A stretch of DNA of 50,532 nucleotides, taken from positions 1 through 50,532 of the forward strand of contig JANXMQ010000030.1 of the NCBI GenBank assembly GCA_025354565.1. The letters run 5' to 3'. Shown here one piece after another: positions 3,694-12,852 of the stretch. Source of the DNA: Akkermansiaceae bacterium (GTDB lineage: Bacteria; Verrucomicrobiota; Verrucomicrobiia; Verrucomicrobiales; Akkermansiaceae). The notes beneath the pieces are model-generated. The model was not told the origin of the DNA. It searched no databases and saw nothing but the letters and a program-made list of their open reading frames with translations. Position 1 is the first letter of the stretch; each line of letters starts with the position of its first letter. A program made the translations under genes and the position numbers.

Positions 3694-5076
3694 TTAGTTA
3701 TTGGGTTCCTTGCGACGGGCTTTTTTCCCGCCTGGTTCCGCGCCGTCGCTGTCGCCGGCACCTTCGCCCCAGAGTGGCTTGACGAGGGTGGCGTTCCAAG
3801 AGTCCCACTTGGCTTGCAGTTCCTTCACCTTTTCCGGCTGAGCGGCAGCGAGATCCTTGGTTTCGCCGAGGTCGTCGTGAAGGTTGTAGAGTTTTGCGTC
3901 ACTGACGGGCTGGCGTTTGCCGGTGTTGGTGTCGGCATTGGTGTCGTAGCGGACGAGCTTGAAATCACCCGAGCGGATGGCCATTTGCTGACCGAAGCGC
4001 CAGTAGAGCGCGTCGTGGGGCGGGGCGGATTTTTCACCTGATAGATAGGGCATCAGGTTCACGCCATCGAGTTTCCACTCGGGCTTTACGTCGATCCCAG
4101 CGGCGGCGAGTGCGGTGGCAGTTAGATCGAGTTGGATGGCGGGTTGTTCATAGACGCCGGGTTTCACCTGACCGGGCCACGAGACAACGAAGGGCACGCG
4201 GACACCGCCTTCGAGGGTGGTGCGCTTGCTGCCGCGCAGGGGGAGATTCGAGGAGCCGTTGACGGTGACGCCTTTCATGGTGGGGCCACCATTGTCGCTG
4301 ATGAAAACGACGAGCGTGTTTTTGTCCAAGCCCTCATCGACGAGCTTTTTACGGACGGTGCCGATGGCCTCATCCATGGCGAGCATCATCGCGTCGTAGG
4401 TGCGGCGCTGTTTGTCCGCGATGTTAGGAAATTTCGCAAGCCGATCATCGGTGGCGTCCATCGGGGTGTGGACGGCATTGAACGCAAGATAGAGAAACCA
4501 CGGTTTGCCCTTATGCCGGTCGATGAAGCTGACCGCTTCGCGCCCGAAGGCATCGGTGGTGTAGTCGAGTTCCTTGACTGGCTCCGTGCCACGGAGGATG
4601 CCGCCGACGTTGAAGTAGCTGTGTGCGCCACCGAGGAAACCGAAAAATTCCTCGAAGCCGCGCTTCTGTGGCTGCATGTCTCCCTGCGAGCCGAGATGCC
4701 ACTTGCCGATGATACCGGTCGCGTAGCCTGCGGCCTTCATGCGATCGGCGATGGTGGTTTCGGAAACCGGTAGGCCATTCGTTTCGCCACTGGGGTTGAA
4801 CTCATGGCCAAAGCGCTGCTGATAGCGTCCCGTTAGAAGACCGGCGCGCGTGGGTGAACAGTAAGGCCCGCTGACGTAGCCGCTGGTGAAACGCATCCCG
4901 GAGGCCGCGAGCGAATCGAGATTCGGCGTTGGTATGTCCTTGCACTTCTGGAAACCGACATCGCCGTAGCCCATGTCGTCACCGACGATGAACAGGATGT
5001 TCGGCTTCGCGGGAGCGGCGTGGAGCAAGTGGGCGGATGCAAATAGCAGCGGGAGGGCGTAGATAGCAATTTTCAT
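3694..5076 (-). CDS. Exported arylsulfatase-type sulfatase (S1 family)
   Basis: This 460-residue sulfatase starts MKIAIYALPLLF with a signal peptide cut near residue 22. It has the metal motif VGDDMGYGD and the formylglycine motif CSPTR at Cys73, followed by GLLTGRYQQRFGHE, very like the first sulfatase here (GRYQQRFGHE). The two are probably paralogues with related substrates. DNGG and GGVRVPFVVSWPG follow. The C-terminus is basic and low in complexity (GGKKARRKE). Its 28-bp 5' leader is nearly the same as that of the sulfatase at 7482-9134. Sulfate removal from a secreted or dietary glycan is the likely role. Confidence 0.93.
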   Translation of the reverse strand: MKIAIYALPLLFASAHLLHAAPAKPNILFIVGDDMGYGDVGFQKCKDIPTPNLDSLAASGMRFTSGYVSGPYCSPTRAGLLTGRYQQRFGHEFNPSGETNGLPVSETTIADRMKAAGYATGIIGKWHLGSQGDMQPQKRGFEEFFGFLGGAHSYFNVGGILRGTEPVKELDYTTDAFGREAVSFIDRHKGKPWFLYLAFNAVHTPMDATDDRLAKFPNIADKQRRTYDAMMLAMDEAIGTVRKKLVDEGLDKNTLVVFISDNGGPTMKGVTVNGSSNLPLRGSKRTTLEGGVRVPFVVSWPGQVKPGVYEQPAIQLDLTATALAAAGIDVKPEWKLDGVNLMPYLSGEKSAPPHDALYWRFGQQMAIRSGDFKLVRYDTNADTNTGKRQPVSDAKLYNLHDDLGETKDLAAAQPEKVKELQAKWDSWNATLVKPLWGEGAGDSDGAEPGGKKARRKEPNN

Positions 5077-5104
5077 AGGTAAAGCGGATGTATAAAGCGA
5101 GCCA
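5077..5104 (-). promoter_or_regulatory. Leader shared with the sulfatase at 7482-9134
   Basis: The bases just upstream of the ATG (TGGCTCGCTTT, then ATCCGCTT on the minus strand) match the leader at 9135-9162 apart from a few changes. In this copy the leader reads as ten codons (LARFIHPLYL) whose stop overlaps the sulfatase ATG as ATGA. No ATG starts this copy. It could be a coupled leader peptide, a binding site, or simply a duplicated gene start. Confidence 0.5.
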
Positions 5105-5265
5105 GTCCCTTACTCTCGAAACGGTGGCAACCTGTCGTTTTAAAATCCATGGCCCGAGGGGGGAGGGGCGGCGGCAGAAAATTGCTATAGATAAGGGCAA
5201 TTGATGAAGGCGGATAAAAAGGATTACTACCGCGTCAGAATATGGCGCAGGCGAAATCCGGCAGA

Positions 5266-7239
5266 TTACCGGTCACTGACTCGTTTGTAAAAAGTTCCGT
5301 TATATTGGAATCCGGCAACGGTGGGCTTGCCGTCTCCAGATGCAGTCTGCATATCAATGCGAAAACTCTGGCCGCTATCCTGATTAAAGTAAGGACTTTC
5401 CTTGGCACATTGTAACCTTGCGTGGACGAGGTCAGCGGTGAGATCCCAACTGACGCCGGCCTGATTGGTCCATTGATAGGTTGGTGATTGTGTGTTGCCC
5501 GCGAGCTTGAGTTCGCCGACATGCCAGCCGTTTTCATTCGGTTCATGTTGGTAATGGCCGACTAACATGGCGGGCGTGACGATTTTGGTGAGGTCCGGAA
5601 CCGCTACTTCTTGACGGGTCACGATCGGCACATAGCCCACTTCCAGTCCAATAGGCGGCGTCACGATCAATGCCGAGTCCAGCGCCACCAGCTTGCCGTG
5701 AGTCGGCGGTGCCATGTAGTCGCGATCTATCGTCCAGCTTGCATGAAGCTTCGCGACCAAGGCTTGCAACTTCGCCTTCTTCTCCTCGCTCCAGTGGTAT
5801 TGCTGAAACGACGGCTGATCCACGAAGCGATACCATGAGTAAGTCACGACCGAGCCATCAGCGAGCTTGACGGAAAATGGGCCGCTCTTCGCACCGGGCT
5901 GAGTCCAGGCACCCGTCGTGGGGGAAGTATAAGGAACTCCCGGCTTGCTTAGCTCAAACTCTTGCGCGTGCAACTTGGTTTCAACTGGCACATCTTTCTC
6001 TGCCACCGCGACGATTTCATTGCCGACCTGTTTGTAATACTGCGGGAATTCGCCATTCGGGCTGATCGGGTTCTGACTCCACTTCAAGCCCCACACATTG
6101 CTCTCGAAGATCGTGGTATCGAAGACCTTCTCGATGCCGGTCATTTTCTTCCCGGTCTGAGTATAGCTCGTTGTTTCAGTGGTGAGTTTCGGCTTCCAAG
6201 TGCCGCCTTGGTCGAAGCGCCCTGAGCAGATGGGGCCATCATTTTTCCATGAATTGAATGCGTCATAGAGCGCCTTCTTCGAGTAGTAAGTGACGTCCTG
6301 CACCAGATAGGTCCGTCCCTCTCCATACACGGGAAACTGCAATTTCGGGATTTTCGAATAGACGCTCCCCTTCGCATCTTTGGCTTTGAAGCAAGGCACG
6401 GTATTGATCTCCATCGCTCCGCCACCGATGTCGCCGGGCCGGGCATCCAGTCCGCGGCCGTGGAGGAACGGCTCATTGAATAGCTTGCCGATTTTACTCC
6501 AAGTTTCCGGGATGTAATACGCAATCGGCCCTTTGAAATTCGCCGCGCTCAGAAAGCAGGTCCAGCTCTGCTCTCCGGTGGGCGGGTCCTCCGTCGTGGC
6601 ATCGGTAAAGGGCAAGGCCATCCACGAGTAACCGAGAAACTGACCGTTAGGAGTTCCCTGAAATGGCAGCGCATCCGGTGGAATCAGAAGCCGGTTACTT
6701 AGCTGCGCGATGCTCAGACGATTCTCCGGCAGTGCCTCATTGCTGTAGAAAAACGACCACCCCGGCGAACCCACCTCGTAGTCATAGCATTGCGGCGTGC
6801 CGTTCATGCTGAACTTAGGCGGACCGTAGCGGAAATGATTCCCCGCCCAGTAACCCAAGCCACCCTCCACCGTCTGAAAAACGCTATCCCAAGTAGGGCC
6901 TCGATCCTTCATCGTTCGGGCATAGGTGCCTAACGGTGCCAGCGGCTTGTGTTTATTGTCTGAATTATCAGGCAGAATCCATGTGCTCGGCAGACCCACT
7001 TGGAAACCAGCGATCGGCTTCTCCACCAAAGACCAGACAGCCGAATAAAAGCCCATGCCAAAATGATAGTCCGATCCCGCCGGCATTGGCTCGCGCTCGT
7101 AGCCGATGTATCCGTGCAAGCCCTCTGAGTGAGAAGTGACCTTGCCCGCTCCGGATGAAGCCGCGCCTTCGGTCCTGTCTTTTCCAAAACTGGCAATAGA
7201 CGTGAGTGCCAAGCAGATGATGGAGAGCAGGTATTTCAT
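5266..7239 (-). CDS. Large exported protein of unknown function
   Basis: The start at ATG 7239 (MKYLLSIICLALTSIASFG) gives a signal peptide and a 657-residue protein; the frame also extends upstream to 7404 without an export signal. I do not recognise a family. The mature protein is rich in aromatic residues, Gly and Pro, with phrases such as HGYIGYEREPMPAGSDYHFG and GGLGYWAGNHFRYGPPKF, and has few Cys. The C-terminal 60 residues contain a VGHYQHEPNENGWHVGELKL segment that resembles a lipocalin-like or MORN-like strand pair. It lies alone between two sulfatase genes, so a role in glycan capture or breakdown is likely but unproved. Confidence 0.75.
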   Translation of the reverse strand: MKYLLSIICLALTSIASFGKDRTEGAASSGAGKVTSHSEGLHGYIGYEREPMPAGSDYHFGMGFYSAVWSLVEKPIAGFQVGLPSTWILPDNSDNKHKPLAPLGTYARTMKDRGPTWDSVFQTVEGGLGYWAGNHFRYGPPKFSMNGTPQCYDYEVGSPGWSFFYSNEALPENRLSIAQLSNRLLIPPDALPFQGTPNGQFLGYSWMALPFTDATTEDPPTGEQSWTCFLSAANFKGPIAYYIPETWSKIGKLFNEPFLHGRGLDARPGDIGGGAMEINTVPCFKAKDAKGSVYSKIPKLQFPVYGEGRTYLVQDVTYYSKKALYDAFNSWKNDGPICSGRFDQGGTWKPKLTTETTSYTQTGKKMTGIEKVFDTTIFESNVWGLKWSQNPISPNGEFPQYYKQVGNEIVAVAEKDVPVETKLHAQEFELSKPGVPYTSPTTGAWTQPGAKSGPFSVKLADGSVVTYSWYRFVDQPSFQQYHWSEEKKAKLQALVAKLHASWTIDRDYMAPPTHGKLVALDSALIVTPPIGLEVGYVPIVTRQEVAVPDLTKIVTPAMLVGHYQHEPNENGWHVGELKLAGNTQSPTYQWTNQAGVSWDLTADLVHARLQCAKESPYFNQDSGQSFRIDMQTASGDGKPTVAGFQYNGTFYKRVSDR

Positions 7240-7481
7240 TCGGGCGTTATATTTAGCAGGAACGTCGAGGACTCCTACGGTTGGCTGCGGAACCGCCAGC
7301 GATCTGGATTCGGTCCGCAAAAGCCACGTTGCAAGAGATGCGCGAAAAACGAGTGCGCGTGATCGCGTGGAGTGAAAACTGCCTGATGTTGGAGTGGATT
7401 GCATGATGGATTTGCGGCTCCCTTGGAGAGACGACGCTGAAGGTTAGATGTCGGGTCGAAAATTTCGTGAATTCGCAGCGT

Positions 7482-9134
7482 CTATTCTGGAATGCTCACC
7501 TCGTGGCTTTGGGGTGAGTTGAGGGGGTTTCCACTCTTCGGTTTCACCTGACAGCGGGCCGCCCAGTGATCCCAAGTGGCGGCGAGGGCTTTCACGCGTG
7601 CGGATTCATCCGCGGCGAGGTTTCTCATTTCGGTGGGATCGAAGCGAATGTTGTAGAGTTCCCATGGCTTGTCGTGAATGGCGACGAGTTTCCAATCGCC
7701 ATCTCTAACGGAACGATTGCCCTCATGCTCGATGCAGATGCAGCGCTGCGGCAGGAGCTCGCCATTGAATGCGGGCAAGAGGCTGATGCCTTCTTCGGCA
7801 AGGATCGCCGTGCCGTCATGTTCCTGCGGGTATTCCGCACCGGTAAGGGCGCAGAGCGTGGGCATGAAGTCGGTGATGGTGCCGGGGCCGGGGGCGAGGC
7901 CTTTCGTTTTCAGTCCGGCGGGCCAGTGAACGATGAAGGGTGTGCGGATGCCGCCTTCGTGGTTGTAGTGCTTGTAGAGGCGGAAGGGGGTGTTGCAGGC
8001 GTTCGCCCAGCCGCTGCCGTAGCTGATGTAGCTGCCGGGTAGGCCGACGTGTTTCAAGTCCTCGCCGCGATGAAGGATGTTCTGCGGGCCGCTGTTTTTG
8101 TCGAAGCCCCACGGGTCCCACTCGGCGCAGGCACCGTTGTCGCTGAGGAAAAAGACGACGGTGTTGTCGAACTGTCCGGTGCTTTTCAAATGCTCCATCA
8201 CCCGACCGATGGCGGCGTCCATGTGATCGACCATCGCGGCGAAGACGGCCATGCGTCGCGCGAGGTCATGGCGACGATCTTCCGGCAGTGAATCCCACTC
8301 GGGGTTGTCCTTGTCGGCCCAACCGGTCTGCTGGTTGAATTTGTTAGAGGGGATGTTCGCACGCGGCGTGAGTTCCAGATCTTTCGGCAACAGACCGAGC
8401 TCCTTCATTCGCACAAGACGGTCCTGACGGATGCGGTCCCACCCTTTTTCGAAATACATGGCCTCGTATTTCGCAATGTCGGCCTCGGGCGCATGCAGCG
8501 GGAAATGTGGCGCATTGAACGCGAGATAGAGGAACCACGGCTGGCCACTCTGCTTGCCATCGGTGATGAAATCCTCCGCGTAATCAGCGAAGGCATCGGT
8601 GGAGTAAAACGTGCCGGGCACTCCGTCTTTCTCCGAGGTATATTCGCGGCGTTCACGACCTTCCGGCCATCGCGAGTAGAACGGCTGCTCCTGCCAGCAG
8701 GAATTGAAGCCACCGAGCATGCCGTAGAATTCATCGAAGCCGCGCTGGGTCGGCGGGTCCTTCTCGTTGAGGTGCCACTTTCCGACCATGTAACTGCGAT
8801 AGCCGGCGGACTTGAGCACCTCGGGGATCGTCACGACGTTCTTCGGAAGCCTGCCGTCGAGATTGGGAAAGCCAGCCTGATGGGGATTTACGCCGGTGAG
8901 GATGGCGGCCCTCGTCGGCGAGCAACGGGCGGAGTTATAGAACTGGGTGAGGCGCAGGCCGTCCTTCGCGAGGGCGTCGAGGTGCGGGGTCTTGATTTCT
9001 CCGCCATAGCAGCCGAGGTCCGACCACCCGAGGTCGTCCGCGAGGATCAGCAGGATGTTCGGTTTCGCGGAATCTGCGAAGAGCAAACGGGCGAAAACTA
9101 ACAGTAGCGAGCAGGCGATGGTGGCGATTTTCAT
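7482..9134 (-). CDS. Exported arylsulfatase-type sulfatase (S1 family, long form)
   Basis: This 550-residue protein starts MKIATIACSLLLVFARLLF, an export signal. It carries LADDLGWSDLGCYGG and the maturation motif CSPTR at Cys71. It is about 100 residues longer than the other two sulfatases because of a helical insertion after the GKWHL segment that contains KELGLLPKDLELTPR, typical of long arylsulfatases of the AtsA/S1_4 kind. DNGACAEWDPWG replaces DNGG. It is therefore a different subfamily from the first two, despite a similar 5' leader. It begins 30 bp after the truncated PhoD-like gene. Confidence 0.92.
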   Translation of the reverse strand: MKIATIACSLLLVFARLLFADSAKPNILLILADDLGWSDLGCYGGEIKTPHLDALAKDGLRLTQFYNSARCSPTRAAILTGVNPHQAGFPNLDGRLPKNVVTIPEVLKSAGYRSYMVGKWHLNEKDPPTQRGFDEFYGMLGGFNSCWQEQPFYSRWPEGRERREYTSEKDGVPGTFYSTDAFADYAEDFITDGKQSGQPWFLYLAFNAPHFPLHAPEADIAKYEAMYFEKGWDRIRQDRLVRMKELGLLPKDLELTPRANIPSNKFNQQTGWADKDNPEWDSLPEDRRHDLARRMAVFAAMVDHMDAAIGRVMEHLKSTGQFDNTVVFFLSDNGACAEWDPWGFDKNSGPQNILHRGEDLKHVGLPGSYISYGSGWANACNTPFRLYKHYNHEGGIRTPFIVHWPAGLKTKGLAPGPGTITDFMPTLCALTGAEYPQEHDGTAILAEEGISLLPAFNGELLPQRCICIEHEGNRSVRDGDWKLVAIHDKPWELYNIRFDPTEMRNLAADESARVKALAATWDHWAARCQVKPKSGNPLNSPQSHEVSIPE

Positions 9135-9162
9135 GCGTCAAGCGGATTTGCAAAGCGAGCCA
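9135..9162 (-). promoter_or_regulatory. Second copy of the sulfatase leader
   Basis: This copy matches the leader at 5077-5104. It reads ATG-Ala-Arg-Phe-Ala-Asn-Pro-Leu-Asp-Ala followed by TGA, with the stop overlapping the sulfatase start as ATGA. The two leader frames share Ala-Arg-Phe and Pro-Leu. It occupies the whole gap between the PhoD-like stop and the sulfatase. Confidence 0.5.
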
Positions 9163-9164
9163 TT

Positions 9165-10022
9165 TCATCCATGCAGCCGCTGGAACTCGACCTGATGGAC
9201 GACTTTGCCCATGACATCGCGCAGCTCGAATTTCAAGTGCGAGGTTGCGCCCTCCGGATGGAGAGTCACTGATAGAAAGCCGCCAAGTTGACGGTGGAAT
9301 TGGTGGTAAGCCTTGTTCTCACCGGGCGAGCCTCCTGCGTGTTCGTCACTGGCCGGGCCGCAGCAGAATTCCCGCACCTTGGTGATGGGGTGAATGGAGT
9401 CGTATTGCCAATGGCGGTCGCCGCAGAGGATGAAGAAGTTTTCAGGAACCTGCTCCTGCATCCACTGCCGCAGCTCATTGCCTTCGTGTTGAAATCCGGA
9501 GTTGGAGTGATTGTCGCTTTTCCCGCTGGCTCGATCGGGCCCGATGATCGGGGTGGGGCTGACGAGGATCTTCCATGTCGCGCGACTTTCCATCACGGTT
9601 TGCTTGAACCATGCCTTTTGCGCCGCGCCCCAGATCGTTTTATCCGGGCCATCCGGGCTATTGTTAGGCGAGCGGTAGTCGCGCCCTTCGGTGAACCAGA
9701 GCTGAAGGTCGCGCCCCCAGCGGACCGTCCGATAGGTGACGCCTTGACCAATGGGTGCCTGCTGTTTGAAAATTTCCTCACCCTCGGCAAACGTGAATGC
9801 TCCTAACTTCTGCCCGGCCCAAGAGTCGTTCTTGAGGGTATCGTGGTCATCCTTCTGCCAATAGGTTGCCACACTGCGGTTGAACTCTACGAGACGCGGC
9901 AGGCTGAACATGCGCTCCCAGTGGAAGCGGGCGATAGAGGAGTTTTCGGCGCGCGGGGCATCGTTGTCGTAGTAAACCAGATCGCCGGAGAGCACGGCGA
10001 AGCGGGGTTTGAGCGCCAACAT
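9165..10022 (-). pseudogene. PhoD-like metallophosphatase, 5'-truncated or frameshifted
   Basis: The 285 codons from ATG 10022 start inside the domain at MLALKPRFAVLSGDLVYYDND, which contains the GD and DND metal ligands of PhoD-type alkaline phosphatases. KDDHD, GGDR-like (LCGDRHWQYDSIHP) and the late His motifs follow. The usual N-terminal 100 or more residues and signal peptide are missing. In-frame codons upstream (HIYPS) look genuine, but a TGA lies about 13 codons before the ATG. Another frame just upstream (FKDGFDILCADYLTF) looks equally plausible, suggesting a frameshift. A secreted phosphatase without an export signal is unlikely to work, so this is probably decayed. Confidence 0.6.
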
Positions 10023-10223: not shown

Positions 10224-10676
10224 TTACTTGACCAGCAACACGCCTTTCATGCCTGCGGCAGTATGGCCAGGAAAGGAGCATACGAAGGGATAGCTTCCCG
10301 ATGCTGAAGGAGCGCTGAATGTGACACTCTTGCTTTCCTTGGGGCCAAGGATCGGAATGGAGGCGAGCACTTGCTTGGCTTGGGATTTGGGCTGATAGTT
10401 CTCAGCCTTGGCGGTCGCGGCGCTGTTGGCGTAGGCCATTGGATCGACACCGGCTTTAAGCAGGATCCAGTTGTGACCCATGGATTCCTTCGGGATGTTG
10501 CCATCATTCCTAAGTGTGACGGTAATTTTTTCACCCGGCTTGGCCTCGATTTTGGTCACGCTGAACTTCATGGTATCGAAGGCGCTGATCGCCACCGCTT
10601 TTGCATCCCCGGCGGTCAAACCGGTAATCGTGGTGAGCAGGAGCAGCGAGGTGATGATGATATTTTTAGTTTTCAT
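10224..10676 (-). CDS. Azurin-like periplasmic blue copper protein
   Basis: This 150-residue protein has a signal peptide (residues 1-22) and a cupredoxin domain. The type 1 copper ligands are visible: His68 in SMGHNW, Cys133 and His138 in FVCSFPGH, and Met143 in AAGMKG. Spacing and the NDGNIPKESMGHN motif are those of azurin rather than plastocyanin. It should carry single electrons in the periplasm. Its neighbour, in the same orientation and 106 bp upstream, encodes a monoheme cytochrome-porin, so the pair may form an electron route across the outer membrane. The export signal and all four ligands argue for a working protein. Confidence 0.92.
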   Translation of the reverse strand: MKTKNIIITSLLLLTTITGLTAGDAKAVAISAFDTMKFSVTKIEAKPGEKITVTLRNDGNIPKESMGHNWILLKAGVDPMAYANSAATAKAENYQPKSQAKQVLASIPILGPKESKSVTFSAPSASGSYPFVCSFPGHTAAGMKGVLLVK

Positions 10677-10730
10677 AATTCAATGGATTGAGACGTAACG
10701 ATGAGAAGATATTTTAGGAACCTATGTGAA

Positions 10731-10771
10731 GCTAATTCAAGTAGCGGAAAATTCCAACAGGCTAATTCAAG
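10731..10771 (-). promoter_or_regulatory. Two direct repeats upstream of the azurin gene
   Basis: The 11-mer GCTAATTCAAG occurs at 10731-10741 and 10761-10771, exactly 30 bp apart (about three helical turns). They lie 55-95 bp before the azurin ATG and just after the cytochrome-porin stop. This layout fits a regulator binding one face of the DNA. The regulator is unknown. Confidence 0.45.
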
Positions 10772-10782
10772 AAGACAAAACA

Positions 10783-12177
10783 TCAGAAGGCGATCCACGA
10801 CTGGAGATATAGCGTATTGTTGTCGCTGGCTCCCGCGCTCGTGCCGTTGAAGCGGTTATACATAACGTATTGAAGCGAGAGTTTCACGTTGCTCTTTGGC
10901 CAGAAGGATGGGCCGCCCGACTTATTGAGTGGCAGGTAGTTCAACTGCACGACCAGACCGTCGCTCAGCGGCGAGCCTTTCGCGCTCCCCGAGTAAAGCA
11001 ATGCATCATTGCTACCATCGCTGATGAAGTAGCCGATCGCGCCGCCGTAGGTCTTGTCGTAAAGATAATCCACCGTAGCCCGCATGGTCATCAGGTGGTC
11101 GGACGAGTTGCTGGTGAGGCCGAGCTTTTTGCTGGCGTCCCATTGTTGCGGTTCATAAAACACCGACATCAGGGCCGTGATATCATTATTGCCGATGGAG
11201 GTCTGAAACTGTGAGTCCAAGCCCCAGTCAACGAGATGATCCTTACCCATGCTGCTGTCGCGACCGGGATAGGTGTTGGCCGCCATTCCAAAAGTGCCAA
11301 CTTCCCAGGAATTATTGCCAAAGGTATTAGAGTATGCCAGACGCCAGTACGGCGCGATGTCCGCCAGTTGCGTTTCGCCACTGGGATCCACCCCCATGTT
11401 TTTTTGAAAACTGCTACTGAGGGTGCCATATCCGCCCAGATCGACATAAAAGTGATTGGCGATCATTGCGTAAACACCAAGCCCCAGCACTGTTTGCCCA
11501 ACACCTCCATCAATCAGCGTGGCCCCATCCGGTGTCGGTGCGAGCGCCGAACTGCTGAAGGGAAAGCCCCATGCGGGTGCGGTATTCCAAGGGTCCTGCA
11601 TCGTGGGATTGTTATTGACATAGGCACCGTAGGTCAGTGATTGGCCGCCCAAGGTCGCGGTGTCTGCATAGCGGATTTCGGCGTTATCCCAAGACCATGC
11701 TTTGTCCACACCACTGTAGGTGGTTTGGATGAAAGTCCCAAACTTATTCAGGAAAGGCGCGGCCGTCGGGCCGAACAGAGTTTCTGCATATGGCCCGAAC
11801 AATCTTCCGCTATAAAAGACGCTCACCTGATCAACTGCAAAATTGTCATTGCGCTTGAAGCCGGATGCCGGAGAGGCGGCCTGATCTTTGTCGGTATGGG
11901 TAAAGGATGGCTGCAACATGACCGACAGCGGAGGAAGCACGGTCTGATTGGCACCGAGGGTGTAGCCGCTGAGTTTGAACTGACGACCGAAGTCCGTTAG
12001 GATCGGAAACTCGGTATGACAGACGATGCATGACATGCCAGTCTCCCGGGCAAAACTCGGCACCGCATGAGCCGTGGTAGCGAGCGCGATGACGCTGATT
12101 AAAGCTGCCCCAAGGAGATGAAAAGAACGGGTGTTTTGCTGGTTCACATTGGGCGATGCAAGGGTATTTTTAATCAT
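10783..12177 (-). CDS. Cyc2-like fused monoheme cytochrome and outer-membrane porin
   Basis: From ATG 12177 the protein has 464 residues. A signal peptide ends near AHA38. Directly after it comes SFARETGMSCIVCH, with the heme motif CIVCH at residues 50-54 and then TEFPILTDFGRQFKLSGY. The rest is a beta-barrel of alternating aromatic and polar strands ending LQSWIAF with a terminal Phe, as in outer-membrane proteins. A single N-terminal heme fused to a porin is the design of Cyc2, the outer-membrane iron oxidase of iron-oxidising bacteria. The adjacent azurin parallels the Cyc2 and rusticyanin pairing. The longer frame to 12399 is not needed. The substrate, iron or otherwise, is inference, and the protein could be a relative with another donor. 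Confidence 0.62.
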   Translation of the reverse strand: MIKNTLASPNVNQQNTRSFHLLGAALISVIALATTAHAVPSFARETGMSCIVCHTEFPILTDFGRQFKLSGYTLGANQTVLPPLSVMLQPSFTHTDKDQAASPASGFKRNDNFAVDQVSVFYSGRLFGPYAETLFGPTAAPFLNKFGTFIQTTYSGVDKAWSWDNAEIRYADTATLGGQSLTYGAYVNNNPTMQDPWNTAPAWGFPFSSSALAPTPDGATLIDGGVGQTVLGLGVYAMIANHFYVDLGGYGTLSSSFQKNMGVDPSGETQLADIAPYWRLAYSNTFGNNSWEVGTFGMAANTYPGRDSSMGKDHLVDWGLDSQFQTSIGNNDITALMSVFYEPQQWDASKKLGLTSNSSDHLMTMRATVDYLYDKTYGGAIGYFISDGSNDALLYSGSAKGSPLSDGLVVQLNYLPLNKSGGPSFWPKSNVKLSLQYVMYNRFNGTSAGASDNNTLYLQSWIAF

Positions 12178-12432
12178 AACATTGATGGTTTTGTGAAAGT
12201 AACGGGTTACATCTGGAAAGTAACTTTGAGCGAGAAGGTGGAAAATAAATCGGCCACTTAATTTCATCCAATAAATGAATGTGGGGACTGATGATTTTTC
12301 GCGCAAGTAAAAATTATCTCGATTAGTAACCGTTCGGTAATAATTCATCCAAGCGCCTGCCGGATGCTCTTTCTGGATGCCGACTTCCCACGCTTGCATC
12401 GGCAGGTGCTATCGGCTATCCCACATCCAGCC

Positions 12433-12852
12433 ATGACACACGTACCGCTCTCCGCCTATCAAGAAACTCTCGGCATGATCTATTTCGCCAGAATGTTGAG
12501 TAAAATCCGGCTTCATGCGGTAGGCGATCTACGGGAGGATTTCCACGAAAATCTCGGCACCGGACTCGATGGCCGCTGCGTCGATTTCCTGCGGGTCAGC
12601 TATGCCGATTTGTGCGCCCAGCTGCTGTCAGGTGGCGACGACGAAGAGCTTCTCCGCTGGTGTTATACAAACGGCCGGGAACTCAGCACGGGCGACCTTT
12701 TTATCTGGAACCAGTATTTGCGAAAAGTCGGCTGGAACGATGGGGTTTCGGAAATTCTGGTGCGCCGGAAGCAAGAAAGCGGGCTCGCAGGGCACACTGA
12801 AATCCAAACGATGGTGGATTACTTCGATTACGACGAGGGCCGGAAAAGCTGA
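12433..12852 (+). CDS. DUF5069 family protein
   Basis: The start at ATG 12433 gives 139 residues beginning MTHVPLSAYQETLGMIYFARML, the usual opening of DUF5069. The family phrase GTGLDGRCVDFLRVSYADL follows, with a C-terminal HTEIQTMVDYFDYDEGR. The family is common in Verrucomicrobia and has no known function. The protein is small, soluble and without an export signal. It is transcribed divergently from the cytochrome-porin gene, sharing a 255-bp upstream region in which no clear promoter was identified. Confidence 0.8.
   Translation: MTHVPLSAYQETLGMIYFARMLSKIRLHAVGDLREDFHENLGTGLDGRCVDFLRVSYADLCAQLLSGGDDEELLRWCYTNGRELSTGDLFIWNQYLRKVGWNDGVSEILVRRKQESGLAGHTEIQTMVDYFDYDEGRKS

Follow-up and report, generated by a model that had tools for sequence, protein, structure and literature searches.

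Cyc2 is a fused cytochrome-porin that is described as having a signal peptide, one CXXCH heme motif and a 16-strand barrel; its authors see the cytochrome as plugging the barrel from the periplasmic side (PMC8406198). That report gives AXPXFAR[Q/K][T/Y], ahead of the CXXCH, as the identifying motif and describes the Cyc2 of Mariprofundus as a heme-binding outer-membrane protein that oxidises Fe(II). Although Cyc2 is employed as a marker for the oxidation of iron, many relatives come from organisms of unknown iron physiology, and the authors caution that function is uncertain beyond the tested clades (PMC8406198). Homologues of Cyc2 have been reported before from Verrucomicrobia MAGs (PMC6344600), and the presence of azurin in Verrucomicrobia has also been published (PMC8779525). 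The locus described here lies in the window, as we call the whole stretch of 50,532 nt that was analysed, from an Akkermansiaceae bacterium, and consists of a Cyc2-type porin gene followed by a gene for an azurin-like copper protein.

Results

A Cyc2-type fused cytochrome-porin of 464 aa is encoded at 10783–12177 on the minus strand, as are all features of the pair given below, and was recognised from its open reading frame and translation, its family relatives, a 16-strand model and porin fold matches. We read the gene from the ATG at 12177 to 10783, the mechanically called frame starting earlier, at 12399; the frame from this ATG contains AHAVPSFARETGMSCIVCHTEFPILTDFGRQFKLSGYTL. Its product begins with a hydrophobic, signal-like N-terminus (residues 1–38, 12064–12177), identified by eye and from a model helix at residues 17–31, which ends in TTAHA and is followed by VPSFARETGMSCIVCHTEFPILTDFGRQFKLSGYTL, and it closes with WIAF. 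The initial annotation had pointed to a lone CIVCH just after the signal peptide, and this heme c motif (residues 50–54, 12016–12030) is the only CXXCH of the protein, its codon pattern occurring once in the whole genome. Shortly past it a pattern test located a PXL, in CHTEFPIL, and the length of the protein lies above the minimum of 365 aa used for Cyc2. The FARETGMSC context, which had been taken as part of the Cyc2 design, is present in the sequence, but AVPSFARET (12040–12066) is one residue away from the strict published motif, with E in place of Q or K. No match to the porin was found in the Pfam or NCBIfam profile libraries, which is no argument against Cyc2 because the Cyc2 of a rusticyanin-type cluster, described below, is likewise without a match. 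Scans for promoters and terminators came out near background (4 found and 2.1 expected, and 3 found and 3.0 expected, respectively).

An AlphaFold2 model of the porin, computed from a family alignment of 78 rows (A2, with three of the 80 loci, L072, L085 and L091, omitted), had a mean pLDDT of 91.4 and a pTM of 0.85. The model is laid out as the N-terminal helix, a segment of short helices at residues 40–69 that carries the heme motif, and 16 long strands, from 84–95 to 455–463, whose secondary structure predicts a beta barrel spanning residues 84–463 (10789–11928). The barrel ending in Phe that had been proposed from the letters was predicted, with all 16 strands. The solved folds listed as matches were porins (OprB, 4gey, Z 21.8 and 4.0 Å over 327 residues; OmpF entries at about Z 21.7), and none of the PDB fold matches listed, the Foldseek list included, was a heme-bearing fused porin, which says nothing for a new fold. 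Sequence search returned no solved structure, and the A2 profile gave two weak matches, at E up to 10.

The heme-free porins among the listed fold matches, and the failure of any profile library to recognise the protein, would suit a porin whose CXXCH carries no working heme and beside which the azurin lies by accident. We regard this explanation as very improbable, since C50, C53, H54 and K68 are invariant in all 78 rows of the family alignment and Cyc2 of like design binds heme (PMC8406198). The invariant CXXCH also answers a reservation attached to the initial annotation, that the protein might turn out to be a porin without a heme role or to belong to an unrelated cytochrome family. K68, together with M87 in the first barrel strand, which is kept in 70 of the 78 rows, is a candidate for the sixth heme ligand, and a ligand supplied by the barrel would be consistent with the reported non-expression of the Cyc2 cytochrome part without the porin (PMC8406198). 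By analogy with Cyc2, heme would be attached at the CIVCH, and the small N-terminal domain with this heme c probably forms a plug at the periplasmic mouth of the pore.

Judged by sequence, the similarity within the porin family is far beyond chance, with relatives in the phylum reaching 56–62% identity and E values down to 1e-182. The family was found in 6 of 387 genomes of the phylum, namely the window's own genome, four with the 56–62% copies and one with a remote match (L023, 33% over 112 aa). Relatives were also found on nine plasmids (29.5–38.6% identity), and when genome contigs were scanned with an alignment of 12 rows, at least 577 porin-family loci were returned; the 80 loci kept came mostly from Pseudomonadota and Verrucomicrobiota, with a few from other phyla, and single-protein patterns found no porin relative in viral contigs. 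The Cyc2-type genes of CP084173.1 (L013, a replicon recorded as a plasmid of Acidithiobacillus ferrooxidans) and of NC_009469.1 (an Acidiphilium cryptum plasmid) had identical match values to the window porin (34.5%, 220 bits), which may mean either a shared plasmid or a mislabelled contig.

In an 89-row porin tree, from which L022, L072, L085, L091 and the duplicates L027 and L028 were left out and whose root was the single long row L023, the 15 verrucomicrobial rows grouped in a single clade (98%) whose sister was Microbulbifer L034 (99%). Among copies from beyond the verrucomicrobial clade the Microbulbifer gene is the closest, at 52–53% identity, and its genome gave no azurin match at E up to 1e-5.

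A rusticyanin search of 369 gammaproteobacterial genomes gave matches in four genomes, at nine places, and only one of the stretches retrieved from those four genomes (L163) had a Cyc2-type gene beside a rusticyanin-like gene. In this stretch a porin-family member (profile E 6e-126) is accompanied by a cupredoxin, coxA, ctaA, a rusticyanin-like protein at 136.4 bits, just below the curated cut-off of 146.7, SCO1 and, farther on, cytochrome c1, a set that resembles the rus operon reported from acidophiles (PMC10654088). The L163 Cyc2 is 32% identical to the window porin (4e-63) and nests within the porin family in the 89-row tree. With a signal-like N-terminus, a single heme motif and 16 predicted strands in the window porin, and a rusticyanin-linked Cyc2 within its family tree, the Cyc2 design first suspected was supported. 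The strict motif was lacking from the window porin, from the L163 Cyc2 and from 11 of the other 15 members of the verrucomicrobial clade, and was present in 45 of the 76 remaining loci. We therefore assign the window porin to the wider family of Cyc2-type fused cytochrome-porins and not to the strict published Cyc2. A screen by the strict motif would lose most copies of the verrucomicrobial clade.

The second gene of the pair lies 106 nt downstream of the porin gene on the same strand and encodes a 150-aa azurin-like protein (10224–10676), classed as a periplasmic blue copper protein from its sequence, its profile matches and its place in a porin-linked azurin clade. As had been claimed for it, the protein has a residue of the expected kind at each of four ligand positions, H68 of MGHNW and C133, H138 and M143 in the loop CSFPGHTAAGM (10248–10280), which we take, from known cupredoxins, to be the copper ligands. 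It scored 52.9 bits against Pfam Copper-bind (PF00127; cut-off 21.2; 5e-14), and its best NCBIfam match, the azurin equivalog TIGR02695, reached 79.1 bits, below the cut-off of 105.1. Azurin in the strict sense was therefore rejected, and the careful name is azurin-like; rusticyanin (TIGR03095) was also rejected, at 26.5 bits and a cut-off of 146.7. The closest solved structures were azurins (1joi, 1.7e-17).

In 11 of the 16 loci of the verrucomicrobial clade (the window, L018, L019, L020, L021, L022, L024, L026, L030, L031 and L032) the porin gene has an azurin-like gene downstream, a count that includes the window, has the duplicates L027 and L028 removed, leaves L023 uncounted and assigns L033 to the clade by its tree position. 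Two genomes contributed two loci each (G122, with L019 and L021; G283, with L017 and L022), and in L022 the porin is broken by a stop while the azurin is still present. Among the five loci without an adjacent azurin (L017, L025, L029, L033 and L036), a monoheme c-type gene lies downstream of the porin in L017 and L029 and upstream of it in L036, and no carrier gene follows the porin in L025 and L033. A hexaheme cytochrome gene is found directly upstream of the porin in L017, L025 and L033, where the two genes belong to a common redox cluster (L017, 5354–14513; L025, 1933–6353; L033, 46–6311) with Pfam matches to a pyridine-nucleotide/4Fe-4S oxidoreductase, a tetraheme cytochrome and a 4Fe-4S protein in L017 and to a Rieske protein in L033. 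This hexaheme-linked cluster may be a second wiring of the Cyc2-type pore.

Throughout the family, CXXCH occurred in 33 of 89 same-strand ORFs adjacent to the porin and in 9 of 429 lying over 1.5 kb away (the loci are related, and the p value is a guide only), indicating that the porin usually has a soluble electron carrier beside it. Outside the verrucomicrobial clade this neighbour is often a small c-type cytochrome. Six of the nine plasmid regions were opened, and an annotated c-type cytochrome was found downstream in five and farther upstream in one; the gammaproteobacterial L053, remote in the tree, has an adjoining cupredoxin with a C-x4-H-x3-M loop. On the recurrence in 11 of 16 loci and the family neighbour counts we rejected a chance neighbourhood of porin and azurin, and the recurrence further weighs against a porin without heme that has the azurin adjacent by accident. 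Because the pairing recurs in other verrucomicrobia, the azurin partnership is stronger than could be known when the locus was first annotated.

Analysis of the azurins themselves separated those tied to the porin from the rest. In a tree of 43 rows, the 11 verrucomicrobial porin-linked azurins formed a clade of their own (98%), separate from oxidase-linked azurins, and the window protein and the ten others all have a C-x4-H-x4-M loop. The window, L018 and L024 cluster together in both the porin and azurin trees, suggesting that porin and azurin were inherited as a unit. When genomes of clade members were searched whole, azurin was found somewhere in eight of nine, the exception being that of L029, the locus with a monoheme cytochrome beside its porin. 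Azurin clearly has other work too, since it was found in 55 of the 387 genomes of the phylum (E up to 1e-20), compared to 6 for the porin family. For 21 of 31 other verrucomicrobial azurin loci, taken from the searches and a subset of the azurins found, the azurin lies near a gene whose CuA and CXXCH motifs resemble those of subunit II of caa3-type oxidases (e.g. L135, L136 and L139), which points to an oxidase as an outlet of azurin in the phylum.

Comparison of the window with related genomes addressed the origin of the pair. The flanking fabF is 83–89% identical to that of congeners in near full-length matches, indicating that the contig comes from a member of the genus. Four of seven congener stretches show synteny in the block SprT-spd-fabF-4HBT-rsmI, the other three retaining fabF with one or two of its neighbours, and DUF5069, porin, azurin, PhoD and the sulfatases were found in none of the seven. 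The GC content is 54.3% for the porin gene and 53.4% for the azurin gene compared to 58.1% for the window, and this low GC, together with the broken synteny, suggests horizontal acquisition of the pair. The stretch that adjoins the pair at 3694–10022 encodes a PhoD-like phosphatase, two sulfatases and a 712-aa protein that has no Pfam match, and it was not found at that place in the seven congener regions. The DUF5069 gene (12364–12852), divergent from the porin gene, is one of those missing from the congener stretches.

Within the host family the porin was found in 1 of 260 genomes. This rarity, the GC difference and the adjoining synteny break would also be expected of a recently acquired pair that has no present use in the host and is a relic being lost, as might the interrupted porin of the relative L022. 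We consider such a relic improbable, given that both open reading frames are intact and that the heme and copper ligand positions have been retained.

The host genome contains one COX2 match, on a contig that, read by eye, also carries coxA, coxC, cbb3-like genes and c-type cytochromes. A search of this genome, which is 95% complete, for the RuBisCO large subunit was negative, and autotrophy by RuBisCO was rejected as a candidate on that ground. A search of the host genome for the MtrB/PioB porin (PF11854) gave no match, with a control that matched in 1 of 14 genomes and below the cut-off, and a Mtr-type system was rejected on this search.

Discussion

We think it rather likely that the porin and the azurin-like protein together make up an outer-membrane module for electron uptake, leading from an external donor through heme and azurin to an oxidase. 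The Cyc2-type protein would form a 16-strand pore in the outer membrane, into which a dissolved reduced donor, such as Fe2+, a reduced humic or another small redox compound, would enter and reduce the heme. The heme would then hand its electron to the azurin-like copper protein encoded alongside, which would shuttle it through the periplasm towards a cytochrome oxidase. Computation gave the architecture, the family, the conserved pairing, the separate clade of partner azurins and the oxidase genes of the host; heme attachment, the position of the plug, the donor substrate, the direction of flow and the hand-over from heme to azurin are the parts that we infer. Uptake is preferred over discharge because a characterised Cyc2 oxidises Fe(II) (PMC8406198) and the L163 homologue sits with an oxidase. 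That no RuBisCO large subunit was found in the host genome makes an auxiliary electron source for a heterotroph likelier than a base of autotrophy. Points against the module are the deviation from the strict Cyc2 motif, the 5 of 16 clade loci without an adjacent azurin, the much wider occurrence of azurin than of the porin in the phylum, the single Cyc2-bearing stretch from the four genomes with rusticyanin-like matches, and the published caution on function beyond the tested clades (PMC8406198).

The two proteins could instead be a redox pair with another job, whether surface handling of iron or copper, with Fe(II) oxidised for protection or uptake, redox sensing, or discharge of electrons to an external acceptor. 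Cupredoxins also act in copper handling, and neither the host nor its relatives are known as iron oxidisers. In addition, Cyc2 homologues in organisms without known extracellular electron transfer have been taken as possible routes of electron discharge (PMC6344600). We nevertheless hold such another job to be unlikely, because uptake is indicated both by the oxidase beside the L163 homologue and by the azurins of the phylum, which are often near an oxidase subunit, and because no export porin of the MtrB/PioB type was found, in a search whose control matched in 1 of 14 genomes, below the cut-off.

Electron uptake being the preferred function, we tentatively offer an extension of it, as a possibility about which we have more doubt than confidence. 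A two-gene cartridge, made up of a Cyc2-type pore and an azurin clade of its own, may move horizontally among Verrucomicrobia and plug into their oxidases, so that heterotrophs could supplement respiration with electrons drawn from Fe(II) in solution or from reduced humic matter. The azurin would replace the c-type cytochrome usual in the family, and the barrel might provide the sixth heme ligand, either Met87 in strand 1 or Lys68.

What is new here is a conserved porin-azurin pair in a verrucomicrobial clade. Searches of the main text of open-access journal articles turned up no description of a Cyc2-azurin pair. As a compact pore with its azurin, present in several verrucomicrobial lineages and apparently mobile, the pair provides a two-protein system in which direct questions can be asked: what reduces a Cyc2-type heme, what accepts its electron, and whether heterotrophs use external donors.

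Several described systems share features with this locus. MtrAB, MtoAB and PioAB likewise carry electrons across the outer membrane through a barrel, but theirs is described as having 26 strands and working with a decaheme cytochrome that is a protein of its own (PMC8406198), whereas the window porin has 16 predicted strands and one fused heme motif. The copper protein departs from azurin in a ligand loop one residue longer than that of 1joi and from the azurins of TIGR02695 in belonging to a porin-tied sub-clade. Like the Cyc2-rusticyanin route of acidophilic iron oxidisers as it is described in PMC10654088, the locus combines the gene of a fused cytochrome-porin of the outer membrane with a nearby gene for a blue copper protein; it is a two-gene unit, however, without oxidase genes in the operon, and its copper protein is not rusticyanin. 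The Trout Bog Verrucomicrobia MAGs have Cyc2-type proteins in the same phylum as the window, and the available portion of that report describes no partner gene (PMC6344600). Compared to Cyc2 as described in PMC8406198 and PMC7029218, the window porin is one residue off the strict motif, and its setting differs in the azurin-like partner and in a verrucomicrobial host in which no RuBisCO large subunit was found. It resembles Cyc2 in its one CXXCH, its PXL, its 16 predicted strands and its length of more than 365 aa, and perhaps in its N-terminus, which looks signal-like by eye, and it nests with the Cyc2 of the rusticyanin-type cluster.
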